Positions 3,495 through 16,828 of a DNA stretch of 64,000 bases are shown here, piece by piece. Source of the DNA: Pseudorhodobacter antarcticus. Its GTDB lineage: Bacteria; Pseudomonadota; Alphaproteobacteria; Rhodobacterales; Rhodobacteraceae. The notes under the pieces are model-generated. The model ran no database searches and was not told the DNA's origin. It saw only the letters and a list, made by a program, of their open reading frames with translations. Position 1 is the first letter of the stretch; each line of letters begins with the position of its first letter. Both the position numbers and the translations under genes were made by a program. Location: NCBI RefSeq assembly GCF_900110135.1, contig NZ_FOCO01000009.1:62001-126000 (forward strand). The letters run 5' to 3'.

Positions 3495-5168
3495 ATGCGC
3501 CAAACCAATCGCCCTACCCCGCCCGAATTTGTTCCCAAACTGGTAACAGTGCTGCGCGAAGGTTATGGGTTGGCGCAGTTGCGTGCCGACGCGCTTGCAG
3601 GTCTGACCGTGGCGATCGTGGCGTTGCCTTTGTCGATGGCGATTGCGATTGCCAGCGGGGTAGGGCCGGAGCGGGGGCTGTACACAGCGATTGTTGGTGG
3701 GTTTTTGGTGTCGATGCTGGGGGGATCGCGGTTTCAGATCGGGGGGCCTGCGGGGGCGTTCATCGTTTTGGTTGCGGCCTGCGTTGCGGCCACGGGGGTG
3801 TCGGGGTTGCTGCTGGCCACGTTCCTGTCGGGGCTGATGTTGATTGCGGTGGGGGCGCTGCGGCTGGGCAGTTACATCCGGTTTATACCCTATCCGGTGA
3901 CGGTTGGGTTTACCGCCGGCATTGCTGTGATCATCTTTGCCAGCCAGTTGCGTGATTTGTTGGGTCTGTCCCTGACCGCCGAGCCGGGTGAGATTGTAGA
4001 GAAAATCCCGGCCCTGTGGGCGGCGCGGGGCAGTATCAGCGGGGCGGCCTGTGCGGTGGCCGCATTGACCATCGTGGTGATTTTGGGGGTGAAACGCTGG
4101 CGCCCGCACTGGCCGGGGATGTTGCTGGCGGTTGTGGTGGCGTCGGGTGTGGTGTTCGCGCTGGGCCTGCCTGTTGATACGATTGGCACCCGTTTTGGGG
4201 CGTTGCCGTCGCATTTGCCTGCGCCTGCCTTGCCCGATTTGTCGGTGGCGGCCGTGATGCAGGCCTTGCCGTGGGCTGCCAGTTTTGCCCTGCTGGGGGC
4301 GATTGAATCGCTGTTGTCTGCGGTGGTTGCGGATGGGATGACGGGGCGCAGGCACCGGTCCAACGCGGAGCTGGTGGCGCAAGGGGTGGCCAATATGGGG
4401 TCCGCGCTGTTTGGTGGGTTTTGTGTCACGGGCACCATTGCGCGCACCGCCACCAATGTGCGCGCCGGGGCTGTGGGGCCAATATCGGGGATGCTGCACG
4501 CGTTGTTTGTGTTGGGGTTTATGCTGCTGGCCGCCCCTTTGGCCGCGTATATTCCGCTGGCGACCTTGGCCGGGGTGTTGGCGATTGTCGCGTGGAATAT
4601 GGCCGAGAAGGAGGAGGCTTGGGCCTTGATCCGCGCCAGTCGGGCGGATGCGATGGTGGTGCTGGTCACATTTGCGCTGGTTGTGTTTCGCGATTTGACC
4701 ACGGGCATTGTGGTTGGCTGTGCGCTGGGTGGGGCGGTGTTTATTCGCCGCATGTCGGATGCCGCCAGCCTGCACCAGCCTGAGGACCCCTTGGAGGAGC
4801 GACCGGGCCTTGATGCCGCTGCCAGTGATTTGGTAGTGTGCCATCTGCGGGGACCGTTTTTCTTTGGCGCGGCGGCACGGCTAGGTTTCGTTTTGGATCA
4901 AATCGCCGATACGCCGCGCGGCTTTGCGGTGGATTTTACGGACGTGCCGTTCATCGACAGCTCGGGCGCGCGGTCGTTTGAATTGTTGGCCCGCAAGACC
5001 GCGCGCAAGGGCGGCAGGTTATTTTTCACCGCAACCAATGCCGATGTGCGCGCCATGCTGCATAGCCATGGGTTGCGCGCGCCATATGTCACCTATTTGC
5101 CCGATTTGGCGGCGGTACGCGCTGTTTTGGCGCAGGCAGAATCACCCGAATCATCTGCGCGGCACTGA
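3495..5168 (+). CDS. SulP-family anion transporter with STAS domain
   Basis: A 557-residue inner-membrane transporter. Residues about 30-420 form a series of hydrophobic segments typical of the SLC26/SulP fold, with the signatures VAIVALPLSMAIAIASG, GGSRFQIGGPAGAF and IRFIPYPVTVGFTAG. The C-terminal STAS domain (about 450-550) carries VPFIDSSGARSFELL, the antisigma-antagonist-like phosphorylatable serine region. Family members exchange sulfate, bicarbonate, fumarate or other anions, and the substrate here cannot be fixed by sequence. There is no adjacent carbonic anhydrase or sulfate-assimilation gene. The start MRQTNRPTPPEF has no strong Shine-Dalgarno, and the reading begins soon after the divergent HugZ-like gene. 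Confidence 0.88.
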   Translation: MRQTNRPTPPEFVPKLVTVLREGYGLAQLRADALAGLTVAIVALPLSMAIAIASGVGPERGLYTAIVGGFLVSMLGGSRFQIGGPAGAFIVLVAACVAATGVSGLLLATFLSGLMLIAVGALRLGSYIRFIPYPVTVGFTAGIAVIIFASQLRDLLGLSLTAEPGEIVEKIPALWAARGSISGAACAVAALTIVVILGVKRWRPHWPGMLLAVVVASGVVFALGLPVDTIGTRFGALPSHLPAPALPDLSVAAVMQALPWAASFALLGAIESLLSAVVADGMTGRRHRSNAELVAQGVANMGSALFGGFCVTGTIARTATNVRAGAVGPISGMLHALFVLGFMLLAAPLAAYIPLATLAGVLAIVAWNMAEKEEAWALIRASRADAMVVLVTFALVVFRDLTTGIVVGCALGGAVFIRRMSDAASLHQPEDPLEERPGLDAAASDLVVCHLRGPFFFGAAARLGFVLDQIADTPRGFAVDFTDVPFIDSSGARSFELLARKTARKGGRLFFTATNADVRAMLHSHGLRAPYVTYLPDLAAVRAVLAQAESPESSARH

Positions 5169-5505
5169 GCGTTGGCGACCTTTCGCTGATGCGGCGCGGA
5201 TATGACGAAACACTGCGCCCTTTCCCCTTGTTGCTTGCCGAATGTGCAGCCCTGCCCAATCCTTCACCAGTTTGTGAACGGTTAGTTGATTGAAAAACAA
5301 TGCCAAAAATTTGACACAATTCACTAAGTTTACAAAATATGGCCGCAGCGGGTAAATAAATTTACAGAAAAACCATTGTATTAAAAAGAGTTACGCAAAA
5401 ATTGACTATTGCGCTATAGTACCGAAATGGGGAGGGGTTGGTCGCGCAGCAAGCCGCGCAGGCCCCATGGCAAAGCAGCCCCCCACCGTTTGAGGAGAAA
5501 CAGTC
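5169..5505 (+). promoter_or_regulatory. AT-rich upstream region of acs with candidate promoter
   Basis: These 337 bases contain no credible gene and turn clearly AT-rich from about 5290 to 5430. A possible sigma-70 promoter is TTGACA at 5311-5316 with CAAAAT at 5333-5338 (16-base spacer, weak -10). A second TTGACT lies at 5402-5407, followed too closely by TATAGT to act as its partner. acs is normally strongly regulated, so activator sites are expected here, but I cannot identify them. No terminator for the preceding SulP gene is visible. Confidence 0.4.
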
Positions 5506-7470
5506 ATGTCGCACCCCACGCAGGCCGCTTTGGTTTACCCCGCATCAGATGATTTCGTCGCAGGTGCCCATGTCAACGCCGCGCAATATGCGTCGATGTA
5601 TGCGGCGTCTGCCGCCGATCCTGTTGCCTTTTGGGCCGAACAGGGCAAGCGCATCGACTGGATCAAGCCTTATACCAAGGTCAAAGATACCAACTTCACG
5701 CTTGGTGAAGTGTCGATCAAATGGTTTGAGGATGGCAATCTGAACGTTTCGGCCAATTGCGTGGATCGCCACATGACCACCCGCGCCAACCAGACCGCGA
5801 TTATCTGGGAGCCGGACCACCCTGATACACCCGCCCAGCACATCACCTATGCGCAACTGCTTGAAAACACGTGCCGCATGGCCAATGTGCTGAAGGCCCA
5901 CGGTGTTGCCAAAGGCGACCGCGTGGTGATCTATCTGCCGATGATCCCCGAGGCGGCCTATGCGATGCTGGCCTGCGCGCGGGTTGGGGCGATCCATTCC
6001 ATCGTGTTCGCGGGCTTTTCCCCCGATGCATTGGGCAACCGGATTAACGATTCTGAGGCGAAGGTGGTGATCACCGCTGATTTTGCGCCCCGTGGTGGCC
6101 GCAAAACTGGGTTGAAGGCCAACACGGACGCGGCGCTGTTGCATTGCGATGATCGGGTGAAATGCTTGGTTGTAAAGCACACAGGCGATCAGACCACTTG
6201 GGTTGAGGGTCGCGATGTGGACGTAAAGGCCGAAATGGCTGCCGCAGCGCCCTATTGTTCGTATGTTGAGATGAACGCTGAGGACCCGCTGTTTATCCTT
6301 TATACCTCTGGCTCCACCGGTAAGCCCAAGGGGGTTGTCCACACTTCGGGCGGGTATTTGGTTTATGCCGCCATGACACATCAGATGACGTTCGATTATC
6401 ATGATGGCGATGTGTTTTGGTGTACCGCCGATGTGGGTTGGGTCACGGGGCACAGCTATATCATCTATGGCCCGCTGGCGAATGGTGCGACCACGATCAT
6501 GTTTGAAGGGGTGCCGACGTTCCCCGACGCAGGCCGGTTTTGGGAAGTGTGCGCCAAGCACAAAGTGAACCAGTTTTACACCGCGCCCACCGCCATTCGT
6601 GCGCTGATGGCGCAGGGGCATGAATGGGTCGCAAAACATGACCTTTCCAGCCTGAAACTGCTGGGGTCGGTGGGCGAGCCAATTAACCCAGAGGCGTGGA
6701 ATTGGTACAACACCCATGTCGGTAAGGGCAAATGCCCGATTGTTGATACATTCTGGCAAACCGAAACCGGCGGTCACATCGTGACGCCGTTGCCGGGGGC
6801 CATTCCGCAAAAGCCGGGGTCTGCGACATTGCCCTTTTTTGGGGTAAAGCCAGTTGTTTTAGATGCCGCCACCGCTGCGTTGCAAACTGAAACCGTGGCC
6901 GAGGGGGTGATGTGCATTTCCGACAGCTGGCCGGGCCAAATGCGCACCCTGTGGGGCGATCATGCCCGGTTTGAAGAGGCGTACTTCAGCCAATATCCCG
7001 GTTATTATTTCACAGGCGATGGCTGTCGCCGTGATGCCGATGGGTATTACTGGATCACGGGGCGCGTGGATGACGTGATCAACGTATCCGGGCACCGTAT
7101 GGGCACTGCCGAGGTTGAATCTGCGCTGGTTGCCCATGCGATGGTGGCCGAGGCGGCGGTTGTGGGTTATCCGCATGAAATCAAGGGCCAAGGCATCTAT
7201 GCCTATGTGACCTTGATGAATGATGTCGAACCCACCGATGATTTGCGCAAGGATTTGGTGAAATGGGTGCGCCAAGAAATTGGCCCGATTGCCAGCCCTG
7301 ATTTGATCCAATGGGCGCCCGGCTTGCCGAAAACCCGTTCGGGCAAAATCATGCGCCGCATTTTGCGCAAGATCGCCGAGAATGATTTTGCGACCCTTGG
7401 GGATACGTCGACCCTTGCCGATCCGTCGGTGGTGGATGATTTGATCAACAATCGCATGAACCGGGTGTGA
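5506..7470 (+). CDS. acs: Acetyl-CoA synthetase
   Basis: A 654-residue AMP-forming acetate-CoA ligase: acetate + ATP + CoA gives acetyl-CoA + AMP + PPi. Full length matches the family (about 650). The adenylate-forming P-loop motif [11 protein letters not shown] starts at residue 266, and the hinge and adenylation motifs ([23 protein letters not shown]) are intact. The C-terminal [11 protein letters not shown] holds the catalytic lysine K614, which is the site of inhibitory acetylation in characterised Acs. A strong Shine-Dalgarno GAGGAG precedes the ATG. It begins a co-directional run with a second adenylate kinase (1-base gap), the DUF4212/symporter pair and regulatory genes. Together they form an acetate uptake and activation cluster. 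Confidence 0.97.
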
Positions 7471-7471
7471 C

Positions 7472-8155
7472 ATGTCGGATGTGACAACAATCCCCGCTGT
7501 TCTAATCCTGTTGGGCCCGCCCGGGGCCGGCAAAGGCACCCAAGCGCGCATGCTCGAGGAGGCGTTTGGCCTTGTGCAGCTGTCTACGGGCGATCTTTTG
7601 CGCGCGGCGGTGGCGGCGGGTACAGATGCGGGTATGGCGGCAAAGGCCGTGATGGCGGCGGGGGCGTTGGTGCCAGATGACGTCGTGCTGGCGATCTTGA
7701 AGGACCGTATGCGCGACGCAGACACCAAGCGCGGCGTGATTTTGGACGGCTTTCCGCGCACAGCGGGGCAGGCCGAGGCGCTGGACGGGTTGCTGGCCTG
7801 CACCGACCAGCAGGTGAATTCGGTCATCTCGATGGATGTCGAAGATGGTCCAATGATTGCCCGCGTGGCCGGGCGGTACACCTGTGCCGGTTGCGGCGAA
7901 GGGTATCATGATATGTTCAAGCAACCGGCAAAAGCCGGGGTTTGCGACAAGTGCGGCGGGGCGGATTTCAAGCGCCGCCCCGACGACAATGCTGAAACGG
8001 CAGGGGCGCGTTTGACTGCGTACCATGCCCAGACAGCGCCGCTGATCGCCTATTACGAGGGCCGGGGTGTTTTGGAACGGGTTGATGCGATGGCAGATAT
8101 CGCCGCAGTCCGTGACGCTTTGCAGGCCCGCGTAAAACGGGTGATGGGCGACTAA
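7472..8155 (+). CDS. Adenylate kinase, acs-linked paralogue with zinc-type LID
   Basis: A 227-residue adenylate kinase (ATP + AMP to 2 ADP). The P-loop GPPGAGKG is at 15-22 (K21). The AMP-site motifs STGDLLR (38-44) and DGFPRT (92-97) are present, and the LID domain has a four-cysteine zinc motif (C138, C141, C158, C161). The arginines expected in RPDDN and in ARLTAYH are retained, so activity is likely. It starts one base after the acs stop, implying translational coupling. AMP is a product of Acs, so local recycling is the obvious role (inference). A second adenylate kinase with the same layout lies in the spc operon at 46934 and is the likely housekeeping copy. The N-terminus is about 8 residues longer than in that copy. 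Confidence 0.92.
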   Translation: MSDVTTIPAVLILLGPPGAGKGTQARMLEEAFGLVQLSTGDLLRAAVAAGTDAGMAAKAVMAAGALVPDDVVLAILKDRMRDADTKRGVILDGFPRTAGQAEALDGLLACTDQQVNSVISMDVEDGPMIARVAGRYTCAGCGEGYHDMFKQPAKAGVCDKCGGADFKRRPDDNAETAGARLTAYHAQTAPLIAYYEGRGVLERVDAMADIAAVRDALQARVKRVMGD

Positions 8156-8220
8156 GGGGAAGGGGCTGCCCGGTCATTCTGGCGGGGCGGTTGAGAGAAC
8201 AAAAACAGGGAGTTACACAA

Positions 8221-8478
8221 ATGGCGGACAAATCATCGTCCAACGCCTATTGGAGCGCAAACATCCGTATCATCATGACCTGCATGGTGATTTGGTTCGT
8301 TGCATCCTTTGGCTTCGGCATTCTGCTTCGGCCCATGCTGTCAGGCATTTCGGTCGGCGGCACGGATCTTGGGTTCTGGTTCGCGCAGCAGGGGTCCATT
8401 CTGGTCTTTCTCGCGCTGATCTTCTTCTATGCTTGGAGAATGAACAAACTCGACGCCGAACATGGCGTAGAAGAATAA
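8221..8478 (+). CDS. DUF4212 small membrane subunit of a sodium:solute symporter
   Basis: An 85-residue protein with two hydrophobic helices (about 12-37 and 46-70) and the family pattern NAYWSANIRIIMTCMVIWF, FGFGILLRPML and FWFAQQGSI. DUF4212 proteins are encoded just upstream of acetate/actP-like symporters and are thought to be accessory subunits. The start MADKSSSNAYW at 8221 is chosen because AGGGAG lies 8 bases upstream; an in-frame ATG at 8191 is less likely. The symporter gene starts 13 bases downstream, so the pair is surely co-translated. The physical partnership is inferred from conserved adjacency. Confidence 0.9.
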   Translation: MADKSSSNAYWSANIRIIMTCMVIWFVASFGFGILLRPMLSGISVGGTDLGFWFAQQGSILVFLALIFFYAWRMNKLDAEHGVEE

Positions 8479-8491
8479 GGGACGGGGAAAC

Positions 8492-10261
8492 ATGGATCAA
8501 TTTACACTTAACATGATCTTTGTAGGCGGCTCTTTTGCCCTCTACATCGGGATCGCCATTTGGGCGCGTGCAGGCAGCACCGCCGAATTTTATGCAGCAG
8601 GCCAGGGCGTTCACCCCATTCTAAACGGTATGGCCACCGCAGCGGACTGGATGTCTGCAGCGTCCTTTATTTCGATGGCGGGCTTGATCGCCACCGTTGG
8701 TTATGGCAACTCGACCTTCCTGATGGGTTGGACGGGCGGCTATGTTTTGCTGGCGCTGTTGCTGGCCCCCTATCTGCGTAAGTTTGGTAAATTCACGGTG
8801 CCACAGTTTATTGGCGACCGTTTTTACAGTCAAAAAGCCCGCATGGTGGCCGTTGTTTCGTTGATCATCATCTCGGTGACGTACGTTATCGGGCAGATGA
8901 CTGGCGCAGGCGTTGCGTTTTCGCGCTTTTTGGAAGTGTCGAGCGACACGGGCCTTTATATCGCGTCGACCATCGTGTTCATCTATGCCGTTCTTGGCGG
9001 CATGAAGGGCATCACCTATACGCAGGTGGCACAGTATTGCGTTTTGATTATCGCCTACACCATTCCGGCGATCTTCATCTCGTTGCAGTTGACGGGTAAC
9101 CCGATCCCAGGCTTGGGTCTGTTTTCAACGCACATTGAATCCGGTTTGCCATTGCTGACCAAGCTGGACCAAGTTGTGACCGAATTGGGCTTTGCCCAGT
9201 ACACCACGCTGAACTCCTCGATGTTCAACATGTTCTTGTTCACCTTGTCCTTGATGATCGGTACTGCGGGTTTGCCGCACGTCATCATCCGCTTTTTCAC
9301 CGTGCCAAAGGTTTCTGATGCACGTTGGTCTGCGGGTTGGGCATTGGTGTTCATCGCTTTGCTGTACCTTTCGGCCCCGGCCGTTGGTGCTATGGCGCGT
9401 TTGAACGTGATCTCCACCATCTATCCACAGGGCACCCAAGCTGATGCGGTTCTGTACGAAGAACGTCCAGACTGGATGCGCAACTGGGAAGTGACGGGCC
9501 TGTTGAAGTTTGAGGACTTGAACGGCGACGGTCGGATCCAGTTCTACAACGACAAGAATGAAGGCTTTGCTGCCACCGCAACCGAGCGCGGCTGGACAGG
9601 CAACGAATTCACCTACAACAACGACATCTTGGTGTTGGCAAACCCCGAAATTGCACAGCTTCCAGGCTGGGTGATTGCGCTGATCGCGGCGGGTGGTCTG
9701 GCGGCTGCTTTGTCGACCGCAGCGGGCTTGTTGTTGGCCATTTCGTCGGCCATCAGCCACGACTTGATCAAATCCTACCTGAACCCCGGCATTTCGGAAA
9801 AGGGTGAATTGTTGGCTGCCCGGATTTCGATGGCAGGGGCGATTGTGGTGGCGACATGGTTGGGGCTTAACCCCCCCGGCTTTGCGGCGCAGACTGTTGC
9901 TTTGGCCTTTGGTCTGGCAGCGGCGACGATCTTCCCATCCTTGATGATGGGGATCTTCTCCAAGCGGATCAACGCTTGGGGTGCGACCTTGGGTATGCTG
10001 GCCGGTCTGGTTGTGACCTGCGCGTATCTGTTCACCTACTTGGGCATGTTCTTTATCCCCGGCACGAACCTGTTGGAGCCAGTGGCAGCGAACTATCTGT
10101 TCGGTATTCCACCAGCATCCTTTGGCCCAATTGGCGCGCTGATCAACTTTGGTGTCGCGTATATTGTGTCGATGATGACAGCACCGCCGCCAAAAGACGT
10201 GCAGGACTTGGTTGAATCCATCCGCGTGCCGAAAGGTGCAGGGGCGGCTTCCAGCCACTAA
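8492..10261 (+). CDS. Sodium:solute symporter (SSS family), acetate/ActP-like
   Basis: A 589-residue inner-membrane symporter with about 13 hydrophobic segments. SSS-family blocks include FYAAGQGVHPILNGMATAAD, GWTGGYVLLALLLAPYLRKF, VLGGMKGITYTQV and FFTVPKVSDARWSAGWAL. It belongs to the DUF4212-linked subfamily, and the adjacent acs suggests that acetate or another short carboxylate is the substrate (inference). A soluble insertion between transmembrane segments (about residues 315-380) contains DLNGDGRIQFYND at 342-354, an EF-hand-like calcium-binding loop. It shares an operon with acs, adk and the DUF4212 gene, and is followed by a strong terminator before the DUF294 gene. The gene is complete and has no unusual codon use. 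Confidence 0.9.
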   Translation: MDQFTLNMIFVGGSFALYIGIAIWARAGSTAEFYAAGQGVHPILNGMATAADWMSAASFISMAGLIATVGYGNSTFLMGWTGGYVLLALLLAPYLRKFGKFTVPQFIGDRFYSQKARMVAVVSLIIISVTYVIGQMTGAGVAFSRFLEVSSDTGLYIASTIVFIYAVLGGMKGITYTQVAQYCVLIIAYTIPAIFISLQLTGNPIPGLGLFSTHIESGLPLLTKLDQVVTELGFAQYTTLNSSMFNMFLFTLSLMIGTAGLPHVIIRFFTVPKVSDARWSAGWALVFIALLYLSAPAVGAMARLNVISTIYPQGTQADAVLYEERPDWMRNWEVTGLLKFEDLNGDGRIQFYNDKNEGFAATATERGWTGNEFTYNNDILVLANPEIAQLPGWVIALIAAGGLAAALSTAAGLLLAISSAISHDLIKSYLNPGISEKGELLAARISMAGAIVVATWLGLNPPGFAAQTVALAFGLAAATIFPSLMMGIFSKRINAWGATLGMLAGLVVTCAYLFTYLGMFFIPGTNLLEPVAANYLFGIPPASFGPIGALINFGVAYIVSMMTAPPPKDVQDLVESIRVPKGAGAASSH

Positions 10262-10270
10262 GCAATACGG

Positions 10271-10298
10271 CGCCCCCCGGTTTGACCGGGGGGCGTTT
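10271..10298 (+). terminator. Intrinsic terminator after the symporter gene
   Basis: A perfect 10-bp stem CGCCCCCCGG / CCGGGGGGCG (10271-10280 and 10286-10295) with loop TTTGA is followed by TTT. The T-run is short, so partial readthrough into the DUF294 gene 30 bases later is possible. Confidence 0.75.
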
Positions 10299-10328
10299 CC
10301 CATTTAGCCAAGGACGCTGGACCAAGAT

Positions 10329-12146
10329 ATGACGCAACCCGCGATCATCAGCTTTCTGGAAACCGTCCACCCCTATGACACGCTGTCTCGGGATGATCTG
10401 GTGCGCGTGGGCGGTCTGTTTGACCGCCGCGAATATGCCGCCGGAGATGAGATTTACCACACAGGCCAACCGCTTGCAGGTATCTATCTGGTCAAGCGCG
10501 GCTCGGTCGAGGTGTTGGAGCCGTCGGGCGGGCTGGTATCGTTGCTGGGTCCGCGCAATTCGTTCGGCGAACGCGGGATTATGCGGGACGGGTTGGCTGT
10601 GACCACCGCCCGCGCGACGGAAAGCACCGTGGCGCTGATGCTGCCCACGCTGGAATTTAAACGCCTGATCGCTAATTCACCCGCATTTGCCCGGTTTTTC
10701 AGCCGGGGCAGGGGACATGAGGCGCGCGGCGCCGATTTGACCACGCAAAAGGTCGCCGATCTGATGGCGCGCAAGCCTGTCACCCTTGGCCCCGATGCCA
10801 CCATCCGCGCTGCGGCTATTAAAATGCGAGATAGCCATGTGTCCAGCCTTGGGATTGTCGCCGGTGAGGTGTTTTTGGGCATTGTCACCATCCGCGATAT
10901 GTCGAACAAAGTTTTGGCGCTGGGGTTGGACCCTGCCAGCCCGGTGTCGGGCATCATGAGCCGTGACCCCGTAACCCTTACGCCGGACGATCTTGGGTCC
11001 GATATTTTGCACATCATGCTGGAACGTCGCATTGGCCATTTACCAGTGGTTGAAGGGACGCGGTTGGTTGGCATGGTCACGCAAACCGATTTGACCCGAT
11101 TTGCTGCCGTATCGTCGGCCAGTTTGGTGCGGGATGCGGCGGTTGCCGAAACCATGGCGGATATGGCCGCTGTGACCAAACGTATCCCTGCGCTGCTGGC
11201 GCAACTGGTTGGGTCGAACAACACGCATGAAGTGGTGACGCGGCTGATCACCGATATTGCCGATACCGTCACGCGCCGCCTGTTGGCACTGGCCGAGGCG
11301 CAGTTTGGCCCGCCGCCGGTGCCGTATCTGTGGCTGGCCTGCGGCAGCCAAGGGCGGCAGGAACAAACCGGGGTGTCGGATCAGGACAATTGCCTGATGC
11401 TGGACGACGCGGTGACGCCTGCCGATATGCCCTATTTCGCAGCCCTCGCGAAATTTGTTAGCGATGGGTTGGACGGGGTTGGATATTTCTATTGCCCCGG
11501 CGATATGATGGCCACCAATCCGATGTGGTGCCAGCCCGTGCACGTGTGGCGCGAGTATTTTCGCAAATGGGTCGCCACGCCGGACCCAAAGGCGCAAATG
11601 CTGGCATCGGTGATGTTTGATCTGCGCCCCATTGGTGGCGCGGCCAGCCTGTTTCGCGATCTGCAAACGGAAATGCTGGACATGGCGTCGAAGAATTCGA
11701 TCTTTGTTGCGCATATGATCGGCAACAGCTTGACCCACTCGCCACCGCTTGGCTTGTTGCGCGGTTTTGCCACCATCCGGTCTGGTGAGTTTAAGAACCA
11801 CATTGATTTGAAACATTCAGGCGTGGTGCCCATCACAGACCTTGGCCGCGTCTATGCGCTGATTGGCAAGTTGGCAGCTGTCAATACCCGCGCAAGGTTG
11901 CTTGCGGCGGAGGATGCGGGCGTCATCTCCACCTCGGGCGCGCGGGATTTGGTGGAGGCGTATGATGTGATTGCCCAGATCCGGCTGGAAAGTCAGGCGC
12001 GTTTGATCCGGTCTGGGCGCAAGCCCGATAACTTCATGGCACCGTCTGATCTGTCAGACTTTGAACGCTCGCACCTGCGCGATGCGTTTGTTGTGGTGCG
12101 CACAATGCAATCTGCCATTGGTCAAGCCCGTGGTGCCCGTTCGTGA
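10329..12146 (+). CDS. cNMP-binding / CBS-pair / DUF294 nucleotidyltransferase-like signalling protein
   Basis: A 605-residue cytoplasmic protein with four parts. A cyclic-nucleotide-binding-like domain (about 15-125) contains AGDEIYHTGQPLAGIYLVKRG and SFGERGIMRDG. Two CBS domains (about 145-265) contain VSSLGIVAGEVFLGIVTIRDM and IGHLPVVEGTRLVGMVTQTDL. A DUF294 nucleotidyltransferase domain has GSQGRQE at 339-345 and D351/D353 in VSDQDN, the same layout as the GlnD nucleotidylyltransferase active site. A DUF294 C-terminal helical domain follows. The residues suggest catalytic competence, but the target is unknown. In other proteobacteria such proteins are typically encoded beside actP/acs genes together with a DnaQ-like exonuclease, as here. 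A role as adenine-nucleotide sensor and protein modifier is inference. Confidence 0.88.
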   Translation: MTQPAIISFLETVHPYDTLSRDDLVRVGGLFDRREYAAGDEIYHTGQPLAGIYLVKRGSVEVLEPSGGLVSLLGPRNSFGERGIMRDGLAVTTARATESTVALMLPTLEFKRLIANSPAFARFFSRGRGHEARGADLTTQKVADLMARKPVTLGPDATIRAAAIKMRDSHVSSLGIVAGEVFLGIVTIRDMSNKVLALGLDPASPVSGIMSRDPVTLTPDDLGSDILHIMLERRIGHLPVVEGTRLVGMVTQTDLTRFAAVSSASLVRDAAVAETMADMAAVTKRIPALLAQLVGSNNTHEVVTRLITDIADTVTRRLLALAEAQFGPPPVPYLWLACGSQGRQEQTGVSDQDNCLMLDDAVTPADMPYFAALAKFVSDGLDGVGYFYCPGDMMATNPMWCQPVHVWREYFRKWVATPDPKAQMLASVMFDLRPIGGAASLFRDLQTEMLDMASKNSIFVAHMIGNSLTHSPPLGLLRGFATIRSGEFKNHIDLKHSGVVPITDLGRVYALIGKLAAVNTRARLLAAEDAGVISTSGARDLVEAYDVIAQIRLESQARLIRSGRKPDNFMAPSDLSDFERSHLRDAFVVVRTMQSAIGQARGARS

Positions 12147-12159
12147 AAGAAACGCCTTT

Positions 12160-12681
12160 ATGCTGATGGATTATATCGCCACCTTTGCCGCAGGCCTTGG
12201 CCTTGTGGGCTTTGTCGTGATCGTACGGCACCTGTCCAAGGGGCGCTTACCAAAATGGACCATCCCGGCGTCGATCGGTCTGGGGATGCTGCTGTTTTCG
12301 ATTTGGAATGAATATACTTGGTACAGCCGCACCACTGCGGCGCTGCCTGAACAGGTGATCATCCTCACCTCACCCGCCGACAAGGTGGGGTATCGCCCTT
12401 GGACCTATCTGTTTCCGGTTGCGACCCGTTTTGCCGCGTTTGATGGCACAGGCATGGTGAAAAGCCCGGAGAATGACAATTTCCGCATGGGTGAAGTGCT
12501 GTTTGTTCGCCGTTGGAGTGCGACACAGCGTGTGCCTGTTGCGTTTGATTGCGCAGGCGGGCGGCGTGCAGACCTGATTGAAGGCGCGGAACTGTCACCC
12601 GATGGCACCTTGACCAAAGGCATTTGGGACGATGTCGGGGTGGAGGATGAATTGCAACGCGCGGCCTGCGCAGGGGGGTAG
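12160..12681 (+). CDS. Membrane-anchored protein of unknown function in the acetate island
   Basis: I do not recognise this 173-residue protein. With the ATG at 12160 (MLMDYIATFAAGLG) there are two hydrophobic stretches, about 3-22 and 35-53. These are separated by a short basic loop (RHLSKGRLPK), followed by a soluble region of about 115 residues with two cysteines (in VAFDCAGG and RAACAGG) and no clear motif. The start could also be 12166; the Shine-Dalgarno (GAAAGA) is weak. A longer reading from 12061 overlaps the DUF294 gene and lacks coding character. It begins 13 bases after the DUF294 stop and ends 4 bases before the receiver gene, so it is in the same operon. Topology suggests the soluble part lies in the cytoplasm or periplasm depending on orientation, which I cannot settle. 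Confidence 0.6.
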   Translation: MLMDYIATFAAGLGLVGFVVIVRHLSKGRLPKWTIPASIGLGMLLFSIWNEYTWYSRTTAALPEQVIILTSPADKVGYRPWTYLFPVATRFAAFDGTGMVKSPENDNFRMGEVLFVRRWSATQRVPVAFDCAGGRRADLIEGAELSPDGTLTKGIWDDVGVEDELQRAACAGG

Positions 12682-12685
12682 CACC

Positions 12686-13072
12686 ATGCCGATGGACGGG
12701 GCTAAACAGTACAGCGTTTTGGTGGTGGAGGATGAAGATAACATTGCCCTTGCGCTGGATTATCTGATGACCCGCGAAGGTTATGCGCATGACCGCGTGG
12801 CCAATGGTGGGGCGGCGCTGGCGCGTATCCGGGATATGCGGCCCGATCTGGTTTTGCTGGACGTGATGCTGCCCGAAATGTCGGGTTATGAAATTTGTCA
12901 GGCGATGCGGCTAGACCCAGATCTGGCGGGCATCAAGATTTTGATGATGACCGCGCGCGGATCGGCGATCGAACGCAAAAAGGGGCTGGCGCTGGGCGCG
13001 GATGGGTTCATTTCCAAACCGTTTGAGTTGGGTGAATTGCGGGCAGAGGTGCGGCGGCTGCTGGAAAGCTGA
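12686..13072 (+). CDS. Stand-alone response-regulator receiver
   Basis: A 128-residue single-domain receiver. VLVVEDEDNIALAL supplies the acidic pair, D59 in DLVLLDVMLPEMSG is the phospho-acceptor, MMTAR holds the conserved Thr, and K111 in FISKPFE is the invariant lysine. All key residues are present, so phosphorylation is expected. There is no DNA-binding output domain, so it should act by protein contact. The start MPMDGAKQYSV at 12686 follows AGGGGGG. It lies 4 bases after the unknown membrane gene and 24 bases before the sensor-exonuclease gene, whose kinase region lacks the phospho-accepting histidine. The kinase that phosphorylates it is therefore not obvious in this window. Confidence 0.9.
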   Translation: MPMDGAKQYSVLVVEDEDNIALALDYLMTREGYAHDRVANGGAALARIRDMRPDLVLLDVMLPEMSGYEICQAMRLDPDLAGIKILMMTARGSAIERKKGLALGADGFISKPFELGELRAEVRRLLES

Positions 13073-13096
13073 CCGCGCGGGGACAAGGGGGGGCAG

Positions 13097-15217
13097 ATGA
13101 CACAAAGACCTTTTGCGCTGTCCCGGCTTGGCCTGCGGATGCGGGTGTTTTTGTTCTTTGCTGCATTGGCGTTGGGGGCGCTGGGGTTGCTGGCGCTGGG
13201 TCTGATGGTGGGGTTTCGCAGGCTGGGTGCGCCCGATGGCCTGAACGCCTTTGTGCAGGCAGGGGTGATTGGTGGCTTTGGCACGGTGGGGTTGGTGGCG
13301 GCGGTTTGGTATTTGTTCGATGTGAACGTCGCCAAACCGATTGATGTTTTGGCGGGGGCGTTGCGCGTGCGGGCCCATGCCGATGTTGGCACGGCGTTGG
13401 ACGCAGATATGGCGCAATATCTGGGGGATTTGGCCCCGGCGGCGCAGGCAACCACCTTGACTCTGTCGGACACTCGCAATGCGTTGGCCGAGGCGGTGGC
13501 GCGCGAAACCACCCGATTGTCAGCGGAAAACACTCGGTTGGCGGCGTTGTTATCGGACGTGCCTGTGGGGGTGGTTCTATGTTCGGGCGACCATCAATTG
13601 GTGTTTTACAATGGGGTGGCGGCGGGTTTGATCGGCGCGGGGCTGGACCGCCGCCTGTTTGATTATCTGCGCGAGGGGCCGATTTTGCACGCTTATCGTC
13701 GTTTGATTGACACGGCCGATGCGGATGCTGCGTCGGACCTGTTATGTGCCACCCGCAATGGCGCGGATATTTTGGCCGCCCGCATGCGCCTTTTGCCTGC
13801 CAACGACGGTCCGCCCGGATATGTGCTGACCTTGCGCGATGTCACTGCCGATTTTGCCACCCATGCCGCGCGAGAGGCCTTGTTGGCGGAGGTGCTGGAC
13901 CGTGTGCGCCGCCCCGCTGCTAATTTGCGCGCGTTGTTGGCCGTTATTCCCGAAGGAACGCCCACCCCACCCGCTATGGATGCCGCGCTGCGCGCTGAGG
14001 CTGACAGCCTGAGCCGCGCGGTAACGGACGTGGCGCAGCGGGCCGAGGAGGGGCGCGGCGAGGTGTTTGCGCGCACCCCTTTGCGCATGACCGATCTGGC
14101 CGACAGTTTGCGCGCCCGGATGGAGGCGATGGGCCTGACCTTGACCGCTGCCGATGCGCCATTGTTGCTGCGCTGCGATGGGTTTGAGGTGGTGATGCTG
14201 TTGGCCCGTGTTGCGCAAGGGATTGCGGGGCAAGATGTGGCGGAGCAAGAGGGTGCGGGGCAAGGGTTGGTGGGGCAGCACCTCATTACCGCCTTTGATT
14301 TCACCGTAACTGAGGACAGCGGCACCGCCCTGTTGCGCCTGTGTTGGCAGGGGGAGGCGCTGCGGATTGGGCCGTTGGAGGCGTGGTTGAACGGCGCGCT
14401 GGATGCCGATGTGCCGGGGGTTACGGGCCGCCATGTGCTGACAGGACATGCGACCGAAATTTGGCCTGAAACCCTGGCAGGTGGCACCCAAGCCCTGTGT
14501 TTGCCTTTGCGGATTGCGCGCCGCACCGGGCCACGCCCCAAACCGATCAGCCGGGCTGTGGTCTATGATTTTGAGCTTTTGGGTCGGGCGCGCAACGCCG
14601 CCGTGGTGGATACGGCGCTGACCGATCTGACCTATGTGGTGTTTGACACGGAAACCACCGGACTGCGCCCCGACCAAGGCGATGAGATTGTGCAAATCGC
14701 TGCCGTGCGCATTGTGAATGGCAAGCGCGTGGCGGCCGAAGTGTTTGACATGCTGGTTGATCCGGGCCGCGCGATTCCGGTCGCCTCTACGGCCGTGCAT
14801 GGGATTACGGATGCGATGGTGCGGGGTGCGCCCGACATTGCCAGCGCAGGCCGCGCCTTTCACAAATTTGCGGAAGGGGCGGTTTTGATTGCGCATAACG
14901 CGCCGTTCGATATGGCGTTCTTGCGCCGCCATGAAAGCGCGATTGGGCAGCAGTTTGACCATCCCATTTTGGACACTGTGCTTTTGTCTGCAGTGGTTTT
15001 TGGTCAGCATGAAACCCACAGCCTTGATGCGCTGACGCATCGTTTGGCGATTACGATACCCGAGGAGGCGCGGCACACAGCCATTGGCGACAGCGTGGCG
15101 ACCGCCGATGCGTTCTTGAAACTGCTGCCGATGCTGCAGGGCCGGGGGCTGCGCAGTTTTGGCGCGGTGCTGACCGAAATGCGCCGGCATGGCCGTTTGT
15201 TGAAAGATTTGAACTGA
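13097..15217 (+). CDS. Membrane sensor with degenerate kinase region fused to DEDDh 3'-5' exonuclease
   Basis: A 706-residue protein of unusual build. Two membrane segments (about 16-39 and 52-74) are followed by a HAMP-like and coiled stretch (75-150) and a PAS-like domain (about 150-250). A dimerisation-helix-like segment, EVLDRVRRPAANLRALL, has D268 where a histidine kinase has its phospho-histidine. The next region (about 335-480) sits where an ATPase domain would be but lacks recognisable N and G boxes. The C-terminus (about 510-690) is an epsilon/DnaQ-type exonuclease with all five catalytic residues: D517 and E519 (VVFDTETTGL), D605 (HNAPFDMAF), and H660 and D665 (HTAIGD). The role is unknown: it is not a normal replicative epsilon subunit because it is membrane-bound. 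It follows the receiver gene in the acetate island. The domain call is firm for the exonuclease and moderate for PAS and pseudokinase. Confidence 0.85.
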   Translation: MTQRPFALSRLGLRMRVFLFFAALALGALGLLALGLMVGFRRLGAPDGLNAFVQAGVIGGFGTVGLVAAVWYLFDVNVAKPIDVLAGALRVRAHADVGTALDADMAQYLGDLAPAAQATTLTLSDTRNALAEAVARETTRLSAENTRLAALLSDVPVGVVLCSGDHQLVFYNGVAAGLIGAGLDRRLFDYLREGPILHAYRRLIDTADADAASDLLCATRNGADILAARMRLLPANDGPPGYVLTLRDVTADFATHAAREALLAEVLDRVRRPAANLRALLAVIPEGTPTPPAMDAALRAEADSLSRAVTDVAQRAEEGRGEVFARTPLRMTDLADSLRARMEAMGLTLTAADAPLLLRCDGFEVVMLLARVAQGIAGQDVAEQEGAGQGLVGQHLITAFDFTVTEDSGTALLRLCWQGEALRIGPLEAWLNGALDADVPGVTGRHVLTGHATEIWPETLAGGTQALCLPLRIARRTGPRPKPISRAVVYDFELLGRARNAAVVDTALTDLTYVVFDTETTGLRPDQGDEIVQIAAVRIVNGKRVAAEVFDMLVDPGRAIPVASTAVHGITDAMVRGAPDIASAGRAFHKFAEGAVLIAHNAPFDMAFLRRHESAIGQQFDHPILDTVLLSAVVFGQHETHSLDALTHRLAITIPEEARHTAIGDSVATADAFLKLLPMLQGRGLRSFGAVLTEMRRHGRLLKDLN

Positions 15218-15328
15218 CGCGGACCGGTTTTGCATTTCAGGCCAAGGGGGCCAAATTCTGCGGGCTTGAAACTTGGCCCGCAAGCGCGTAGTTGGCCGAG
15301 TAATCAAGTGAAACGTCAGGATGCGATC

Positions 15329-15526
15329 ATGGCAAAAACCAACCCTCTCCAGTTTATCCAGCAGGTGCGCAGCGAAGTTTCCAAGGTCGTCTGGCCAAAC
15401 CGCCGCGAGGTCGTATTGACCACGATTATGGTGTTTATCATGGCGGCCCTGACAGCCACGTTCTTTTCCTTGGTTGATCTGGGCATCCGCACCGCGTTGA
15501 GCCAGGTGATCAACGCCCTCGGCTAA
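15329..15526 (+). CDS. secE: Preprotein translocase subunit SecE
   Basis: The 65-residue protein MAKTNPLQFIQQVRSEVSKV has one C-terminal transmembrane helix (about 30-55). The amphipathic segment VSKVVWPNRREVVLTT is diagnostic of SecE, the clamp subunit of the SecYEG channel. This is the short single-helix form usual outside gammaproteobacteria. The start at 15329 is chosen because the upstream in-frame residues are not conserved. It heads the secE-nusG-rplKAJL-rpoBC cluster. No tRNA-Trp or tuf gene precedes it, unlike many bacteria. A strong terminator separates it from nusG. Confidence 0.93.
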   Translation: MAKTNPLQFIQQVRSEVSKVVWPNRREVVLTTIMVFIMAALTATFFSLVDLGIRTALSQVINALG

Positions 15527-15620
15527 ACCTTTCGGTTTGGTCAAAACCTGCCGGAGCGTGGCGTACCCCCTTGAAATCACGGGGCTGGCGCTGTATCCGG
15601 TTCCCTAATCAGGACGAAAA

Positions 15621-15658
15621 AACGCGCGGCGATTCGGTGCCGCGCGTTGTTTTTTGTT
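15621..15658 (+). terminator. Intrinsic terminator between secE and nusG
   Basis: A perfect 10-bp stem AACGCGCGGC / GCCGCGCGTT (15621-15630 and 15639-15648) with an 8-base loop is followed by GTTTTTTGTT. It implies that nusG has its own promoter in 15659-15736 or depends on readthrough. Confidence 0.88.
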
Positions 15659-15736
15659 CTGGTCGTGGCGGTTGAACGGCACGAAAATACAGGAATTTCC
15701 GTGGCTTAGGTCTTGGATCAGATAGGTGAAGCAGGC

Positions 15737-16270
15737 ATGGCGAAGCGTTGGTATTCGGTGAGCGTTCTCTCAAATTTTGAGAAGAAGATCGCTGAGCAGA
15801 TCAGAACAGCCGTGATTGAAGCCAATCTGGGCGAAGAAATTGAAGAAGTGTTGGTTCCGACAGAAGAAGTGCTGGAAGTGCGGCGCGGCAAGAAGGTGAC
15901 GTCTGAACGTCGCTTTATGCCGGGTTACGTTCTGGTGCGGATGGAAATGTCGAACAAAGGCTATCACTTGATCACGTCGATCAACCGCGTCACCGGCTTT
16001 TTGGGCCCACAAGGCAAGCCGATGCCGATGCGGGATGAGGAAGTGAACGCGATTTTGAACCGTGTGGAAGAAGGCGAAGCCGCCCCACGCAACCTGATCC
16101 GCTTTGAAATTGGCGAGCAGGTGAGCGTGTCTGATGGGCCGTTTGAAGGCTTTTCGGGCATGGTTGAAGAAGTTGACGAAGATCACAGCCGCTTGAAAGT
16201 GACTGTCTCGATCTTTGGCCGGGCGACCCCGGTCGAATTGGAATTTACGCAGGTCACCAAAACGGCCTGA
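15737..16270 (+). CDS. nusG: Transcription termination/antitermination factor NusG
   Basis: The 177-residue protein has an N-terminal NGN domain (MAKRWYSVSVLSNFEKKIAE, MPGYVLVRMEM, VTGFLGPQGKP) and a C-terminal KOW domain (about 125-177, with FEIGEQVSVSDGPFEGFSG). NusG binds RNA polymerase, suppresses pausing and links polymerase to Rho or to ribosomal S10. The start at 15737 gives the standard MAKRWYSV opening; an in-frame ATG at 15713 is less conserved. It lies between the secE terminator and rplK, in canonical order. Confidence 0.96.
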   Translation: MAKRWYSVSVLSNFEKKIAEQIRTAVIEANLGEEIEEVLVPTEEVLEVRRGKKVTSERRFMPGYVLVRMEMSNKGYHLITSINRVTGFLGPQGKPMPMRDEEVNAILNRVEEGEAAPRNLIRFEIGEQVSVSDGPFEGFSGMVEEVDEDHSRLKVTVSIFGRATPVELEFTQVTKTA

Positions 16271-16375
16271 CGTATTGCCGTGGGAGGCGCGCTTTTGCAG
16301 TTTATCTGCACGGGCAGGCCGAACCACTAAACCATGCGACCCAAGGTGGGGCGCGGTGATTAAAGGAGAGGCCAC

Positions 16376-16828
16376 ATGGCCAAGAAGATTATCGGGCAGC
16401 TGAAGCTGCAAGTAAAAGCGGGGCAAGCCAACCCTTCCCCACCCGTCGGCCCAGCATTGGGTCAGCGCGGCTTGAACATCATGGCATTCGTCAAGGAGTT
16501 CAACGCAAAGACTGCTGATCTGGAGCCGGGCACGCCGACACCTGTGATCATTACCTATTACCAAGACAAGTCTTTCAGCTTGGAAACCAAAGTCGCCCCG
16601 GCGTCTTACCTGTTGAAAAAGGCCGCTGGCCTGCCGCCCGTTGGCAAGCGCAACCGCGCCAAGGGGTCTGTGAAGCCGGGCCGTGAAACGGTCGGGACAA
16701 TCACACTGGCACAATTGCGCCAGATCGCAGAGACGAAGATGAAAGATTTGAACGCCATCGACGTTGAGGGCGCTATGCAGATCATTCTCGGCTCGGCCAA
16801 GTCCTGCGGCATCGAGATTAAAGGGTAA
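16376..16828 (+). CDS. rplK: 50S ribosomal protein L11
   Basis: The 150-residue protein begins [20 protein letters not shown] and has the Pro-rich signature [17 protein letters not shown] and the C-terminal rRNA-binding domain (about 75-150). L11 forms the GTPase-associated stalk base on 23S rRNA. An AAAGGAGA Shine-Dalgarno precedes the ATG. rplA starts 3 bases downstream, so the two are co-translated. In E. coli this pair is autoregulated by L1. The 105-base gap upstream may hold the mimic site, but I cannot identify it. Confidence 0.97.

Follow-up and report, generated by a model that had tools for sequence, protein, structure and literature searches.

Class I sensor histidine kinases, among them ZraS, CpxA, WalK and HK853, share a TM-PAS-DHp-CA layout in which the DHp helices serve as the docking site for response regulators (RRs), and the output of such two-component systems is usually DNA binding or second-messenger turnover. 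Protein nucleotidylation offers another mode of control: GlnD couples adding and removing activities, its HD domain taking the nucleotide off PII. In Caulobacter, DivL senses phosphorylated DivK (DivK~P) with a dead DHp, and in alphaproteobacteria without DivK the DHp-CA part of DivL is often missing (PMC4211667). DivL keeps its N and G boxes (PMC4211667), has Tyr as its acceptor residue (with one exception reported, Ala) and acts on CckA. A further described system concerns nucleases. In Pseudomonas putida, pp_0353, an RNase_T protein, and pp_0354, a CBS protein, form one operon under MxtR/ErdR; pp_0353 is required for normal growth on pyruvate, a phenotype common to actP-I, and a role in mRNA decay has been proposed for it (PMC9927547).

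A locus in Pseudorhodobacter antarcticus shares features with these systems. The window analysed here is a stretch of 64,000 nucleotides, drawn from an assembly of 3.79 Mb in 115 contigs. Within it, one 706-residue protein joins a membrane sensor, a pseudo-histidine-kinase region and a DEDDh exonuclease with intact active-site residues, as the initial annotation had proposed. A literature search, with most subscription journals outside its reach, found no description of this sensor-pseudokinase-exonuclease architecture. The features of the locus are as follows; the flanking genes given without a strand were identified by eye from their translations.

5506: acs
7472: adenylate-kinase-like gene
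about 8221: small DUF4212-like transmembrane protein
8492..10261, + strand: VC_2705-family sodium:solute symporter of the acetate type (TIGR03648, 1.4e-243)
10329..12146, + strand: protein with a cNMP-binding domain, two CBS domains, DUF294 and DUF294_C, a predicted nucleotidyltransferase (Pfam, motif)
12160..12681, + strand: small conserved protein with one transmembrane helix (neighbourhood, hydropathy)
12686..13072, + strand: single-domain response regulator of 128 aa with D59, T89 and K111 (Pfam Response_reg, 4.7e-26)
13097..15217, + strand: whole gene for the 706-aa TM-HAMP-like-PAS-pseudo-histidine-kinase-DEDDh exonuclease protein (reading frame, Pfam, AlphaFold)
13127..13321, + strand: pair of transmembrane helices joined by a very short loop, residues 11-75 (hydropathy, AlphaFold helices)
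13322..13546, + strand: strongly conserved HAMP-like linker and signalling helix, residues 76-150 (position, AlphaFold helices)
13547..13843, + strand: PAS domain, residues 151-249 (weak Pfam PAS_4, PF00989 in relatives, AlphaFold)
13844..14071, + strand: pseudo-HisKA (DHp) helical hairpin, residues 250-325 (AlphaFold, profile matches to ZraS and CpxA, HisKA in distant relatives)
13898..13900, + strand: codon of D268, at the position of the phospho-acceptor histidine (profile alignment, counts in relatives)
14078..14530, + strand: degenerate HATPase_c (CA) domain with N and G box residues lost, residues 328-478 (structure match, alignments)
14627..15124, + strand: DEDDh exonuclease domain, residues 511-676, with D517, E519, D605, H660 and D665 (Pfam, PolC structure match, conservation)
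3' of the exonuclease gene: secE- and nusG-like genes

The four genes from the DUF294 gene through the exonuclease gene are separated by only 4-24 bp and so look like one transcription unit. An Rfam scan of positions 5000-16500 gave no match.

The exonuclease gene is a single unbroken reading frame. Its nearest named relatives are proteins of Pseudorhodobacter at about 75% identity, and in three such loci (L032-L034) the gene is likewise one reading frame of the same make-up. The fusion is thus not a local frameshift artefact, and the two-gene arrangement that the initial annotation had named as a refutation could be ruled out. AlphaFold modelled the whole protein with a pLDDT of 90.1. The two transmembrane helices expected at the N-terminus correspond to hydropathy peaks at about residues 11-41 and 51-74 and to predicted helices at 13-43 and 46-95. 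The linker that follows was described as HAMP-like, and since no Pfam HAMP match was obtained in the protein, that label stands on position and predicted helices and not on a family assignment. The PAS-like domain was borne out: PAS_4 matches weakly (E 0.041 at residues 153-251), the PAS matches of relatives reach 5e-8 (PF00989), and the predicted structure agrees.

The middle of the protein yields no Pfam match to HisKA or HATPase_c. It was folded and searched alone, the exonuclease domain having filled the list of structure matches for the whole protein. The resulting model (pLDDT 90.3) shows a CA domain after a DHp hairpin. All PDB matches listed by Foldseek were DHp-CA proteins of the histidine-kinase type, DivL among them; the CA part matches histidine-kinase CA domains with a VIA Z of 11-12.6 and an rmsd of about 3 Å. 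Sequence profiles tell the same story. A 41-member profile run against solved structures finds ZraS (E 1e-5) and CpxA (E 3.3e-5), and among 21 distant members HisKA is matched in five (best 5.5e-4) and, more weakly, HATPase_c in two (best 0.058). These profile matches and predicted folds mark the middle region as a histidine-kinase transmitter, both in ancestry and in fold.

As the annotation had recognised, an aspartate occupies the place of the phospho-histidine: D268 falls in that column of ZraS and CpxA in the profile alignment, with R271 and P273 of its 'DRVRRP' motif aligned to the 'HExRxP' of both kinases. R271 is nearly invariant across relatives. Among 100 relatives that keep the DHp, the acceptor position holds Asp in 62, Glu in 25 and other residues in 13; neither His nor the Tyr of DivL occurs in any. 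A normal kinase in relatives was therefore ruled out, members from other classes included. The N-box Asn and the DxGxG motif (N, G1 and G2 boxes), read from family alignments, are absent as well. The earlier remark that the region lacks recognisable ATP boxes thus applies to the N and G residues themselves; the predicted fold of the region is still that of a full CA domain of the kinase type. Compared with Class I sensor kinases, the protein has their layout and DHp-CA fold but neither the phospho-histidine nor the ATP boxes, and it carries an extra C-terminal exonuclease. Judged by these defining residues, it is no functional histidine kinase. One could still argue from the preserved DHp-CA fold that this is an active, unusual kinase which phosphorylates some other residue and was joined to an exonuclease by chance. 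Such a kinase is very improbable, as no member has an acceptor histidine, the family as a whole lacks the N and G box residues, forms with only the CA part or with no transmitter at all exist, and the exonuclease is the most conserved part of the protein, with 82 of its 166 positions conserved at 90% or more.

That C-terminal domain belongs to the DEDDh superfamily on the strength of sequence as well as fold. RNase_T (PF00929) matches residues 514-673 at E 1.7e-34, with 120.2 bits against a gathering score of 24, and the five catalytic residues named by the initial annotation are unchanged in 133 of 133 relatives. A single exception to the DEDDh set appeared in the first alignment, L128, a 35% match from a genome without DUF294, and it was treated as a non-member. 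Structure matches to PolC (VIA Z 24.9) and E. coli epsilon (VIA Z 21.9), at 29-30% identity, cover residues 503-705 and 510-678, and its nearest structural neighbours are 3'-5' exonucleases of the DnaQ/PolC, RNase T and ERI types. The domain shares catalytic residues and fold with the DnaQ/PolC type but sits in a membrane-anchored sensor protein outside replication. The TIGR01406 equivalog of proteobacterial DnaQ scores 110.7 bits against a cut-off of 222.7, so that a role as the epsilon subunit of DNA polymerase III is not favoured, in keeping with the poor fit to replication remarked on earlier.

What, then, might a dead transmitter do for a nuclease? The neighbouring genes offer a clue that the initial annotation, which otherwise stood in part, had missed, for neither the RR nor the nucleotidyltransferase partner figured in it. 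In the window the RR gene lies directly upstream of the exonuclease gene. Neighbourhoods could be read at 133 loci. Of these, 100 retain the DHp, counted as 60 or more residues of its segment, and 92 of them have an RR gene beside the exonuclease gene and on its strand; the other 33 loci lack the DHp, and none has such an RR gene. These classes come from residue counts in the full alignment; a split by HMM was discarded, its mainly Rhodobacterales profile having misclassified distant members. Relatedness inflates the raw locus counts, and well-supported tree branches offer seven independent pairs; the RR goes with the DHp in an average of 5.4 of them and against it in none (median p 0.0625). 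Of the 33 DHp-less loci, 11 were scored as keeping the CA-like part with the DHp lost or shortened, and none has an adjacent RR. Among the 11, L173 is an EamA fusion in which the aligned residues are a chance match, which makes ten the safer count. The RR is a single-domain protein with D59 in 91 of 92 copies, T89 in 87 and K111 in 89. Eight loci keep the DHp and have no adjacent RR, hence the RR is either not obligate or located elsewhere. Four loci with the long form and the DHp but no adjacent RR (L094, L097, L099 and L100) form one clade, in which L094 carries the label Arenimonas (a MAG) although it clusters with members from Rhizobiales.

Because the DHp is the docking site for RRs and DivL and DivK follow the same pattern, the partner RR being absent where the DHp is lost (PMC4211667), docking of the RR on the pseudo-DHp is the best explanation of this gene content. 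The likeness to DivL and DivK extends to the DHp-CA fold, the non-histidine acceptor, the upstream PAS domain, the membrane anchor and the single-domain RR. The differences are that the acceptor is Asp or Glu in 87 of 100 members, that the N and G boxes are lost and that the output would be a fused exonuclease. By this analogy we infer that the 706-aa protein works like a DivL-type pseudokinase with an exonuclease output.

The distribution of the family bears on how far this control reaches. In a sample of 149 genomes of the same family, 73 gave a match; slightly fewer than half of the matches are long, around 700 aa, and most of the others are short, around 480 aa. The short form joins query residues 8-260 directly to 484-706 and is a TM-PAS-exonuclease protein without transmitter and without RR. 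The central function therefore cannot be gating by the RR. Other alphaproteobacterial families and other classes of Pseudomonadota also have full-length relatives, mostly at 30-45% identity; the fusion is thus not the lineage-specific elaboration it had been taken for. In a tree of the exonuclease domain, transmitter-free and DHp-free forms lie in several separate places among long forms, a scatter that fits repeated loss. The short forms of Rhodobacterales mostly look like secondary loss of the kinase-like part, a direction deduced from a tree whose root is undefined. Elsewhere the same kind of exonuclease domain shares a reading frame with an EamA-type transporter (L149:1453-2970, - strand; L151:625-2130, + strand), with matches to EamA at 5.9e-33 and RNase_T at 1.7e-30 in L149.

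The short forms also lend weight to a rival idea, in which the pseudo-transmitter does no more than connect PAS and exonuclease rigidly, while the RR, held or released by the protein, serves as output or sink rather than as input. The PAS domain alone may suffice in these proteins, and a single-domain RR could act on other partners. A rigid relay would, however, leave the tracking of the DHp by the RR without a reason and has no need for a conserved HExxR-type arginine at the docking site, R271. Overall, it seems a somewhat unlikely account. The more probable reading, held with reasonable though not strong confidence, is that the exonuclease is controlled by a repurposed pseudo-histidine-kinase transmitter with RR docking as the gate. 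Under this scheme, a membrane sensor with a PAS domain, presumably dimeric as such kinases are, would feed a DHp-CA module that is predicted to be unable to autophosphorylate on histidine and to have lost the residues that normally bind ATP. The RR, most likely in one phospho-state, would dock on the pseudo-DHp helices much as DivK~P does on DivL, a step suggested by the near-exclusive co-occurrence. Together with the PAS signal, docking would shift the conformation of the DHp-CA module and thereby the activity or access of the exonuclease, itself probably located on the cytosolic side of the membrane. Phosphate for the RR may come from another kinase or, given an acetate kinase gene on the same contig, from acetyl phosphate.

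The exonuclease has another companion in the DUF294 protein. A true DUF294 gene is present in 72 of the 73 exonuclease-bearing genomes of the family sample versus 2 of the 76 others (Fisher 4.5e-39, kinship of genomes ignored), and the sole exception is the doubtful match L128. Adjacency persists in other families with differing gene orders, and where the two are not adjacent the DUF294 gene was found elsewhere in 11 of 12 genomes tested. In 12 genomes from other alphaproteobacterial families, exonuclease and CBS-CBS-DUF294-DUF294_C are one reading frame of 712-823 aa with both active-site motifs intact (L219-L226, L228 and L230-L232, not L227 or L229; six of the 12 confirmed by Pfam and the remainder by profile and BLAST). 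Co-occurrence, adjacency and fusion together make it very probable, as far as gene content can tell, that the two proteins act in one process. Two fused loci, L223 and L228, have downstream a longer RR-like frame (223-249 aa, about 31% identity to the receiver) that is possibly an ErdR/CrbR-like regulator. In L227, from a strongly reduced genome of 1.2 Mb (G246), the exonuclease gene is flanked by the DUF294 gene on one side and by a symporter-like gene on the other.

The process itself invites two readings. The DUF294 protein of the window carries the GSxGRxE...DxD motif of GlnD and GlnE, the catalytic pattern GSxxR.E...DxD being present here and in 116 of 116 frames of at least 400 aa, and DUF294_C groups with the C-terminal domains of GlnD and GlnE (PMC3710099). 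By analogy, the DUF294 protein could attach a nucleotide to a protein and the DEDDh enzyme could remove it by cleaving the phosphodiester, with the pseudo-kinase and RR setting the rate of removal; the remover would then be a DEDDh and not an HD domain. Candidate targets are the symporter or the small one-TM protein, a possible target that has no Pfam or NCBIfam match and that lies, in almost every Rhodobacterales locus, between the DUF294 gene and the RR/exonuclease genes. Besides the near-perfect co-occurrence, deep adjacency and fused frames, this reading draws on P. putida, where loss of the exonuclease or of ActP-I slows growth on pyruvate and loss of the CBS protein does not (PMC9927547), as expected if the nucleotide mark inhibits the transporter. 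The P. putida pair is a putative counterpart, with the same exonuclease and CBS protein and with other Pseudomonas homologues beside actP, but pp_0353 is described solely as an RNase_T-family exonuclease (PMC9927547). Removal of a protein-bound nucleotide by a DEDDh enzyme remains unlikely all the same. We know of no DEDDh enzyme that removes nucleotides from proteins, the DUF294 activity is itself predicted, and a shared nucleic-acid substrate is equally compatible with the fusions.

Such a shared substrate is what the second reading supposes: a regulated RNase that trims or degrades RNA 3' ends, to which the DUF294 protein adds nucleotides. The substrates would be mRNA of transport or TCA genes, tRNA 3' ends or nanoRNA, and gating by the RR would be compatible with it. 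The nearest folds of the domain and the mRNA decay proposed for the Pseudomonas gene (PMC9927547) both point this way, although the scheme with a nucleotide mark would fit the same P. putida data. An RNase would leave the membrane tethering and the tie to one symporter unexplained, and no RNA-binding domain was seen in the protein; it seems possible but less likely than not. On either reading, the proposed mechanism has the exonuclease and the CBS/DUF294 nucleotidyltransferase sharing a substrate, presumably tied to the uptake of small carboxylates by the symporter. The silent deletion of the CBS partner in P. putida, under the conditions tested (PMC9927547), counts against it. A search of the literature for DUF294, exonuclease and acetate together, again with most subscription journals outside its scope, found nothing of the kind.

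Taken together, the findings suggest that many Pseudomonadota have a kinase module rebuilt as the input port of a phospho-switch, with a nuclease attached directly to it. In its fullest form, which is quite unlikely, this would be a phylum-wide system in which a receiver is read by a dead kinase whose exonuclease erases a nucleotide mark written by the CBS/DUF294 protein on a carboxylate uptake system. Should the gating itself prove true, it would be a second, independent case of the DivL principle, a dead kinase taking its signal from an RR, and the enzymatic output could be assayed in one tube. It would also provide a handle on the widespread CBS/DUF294-exonuclease pair beside acetate and pyruvate transporters.
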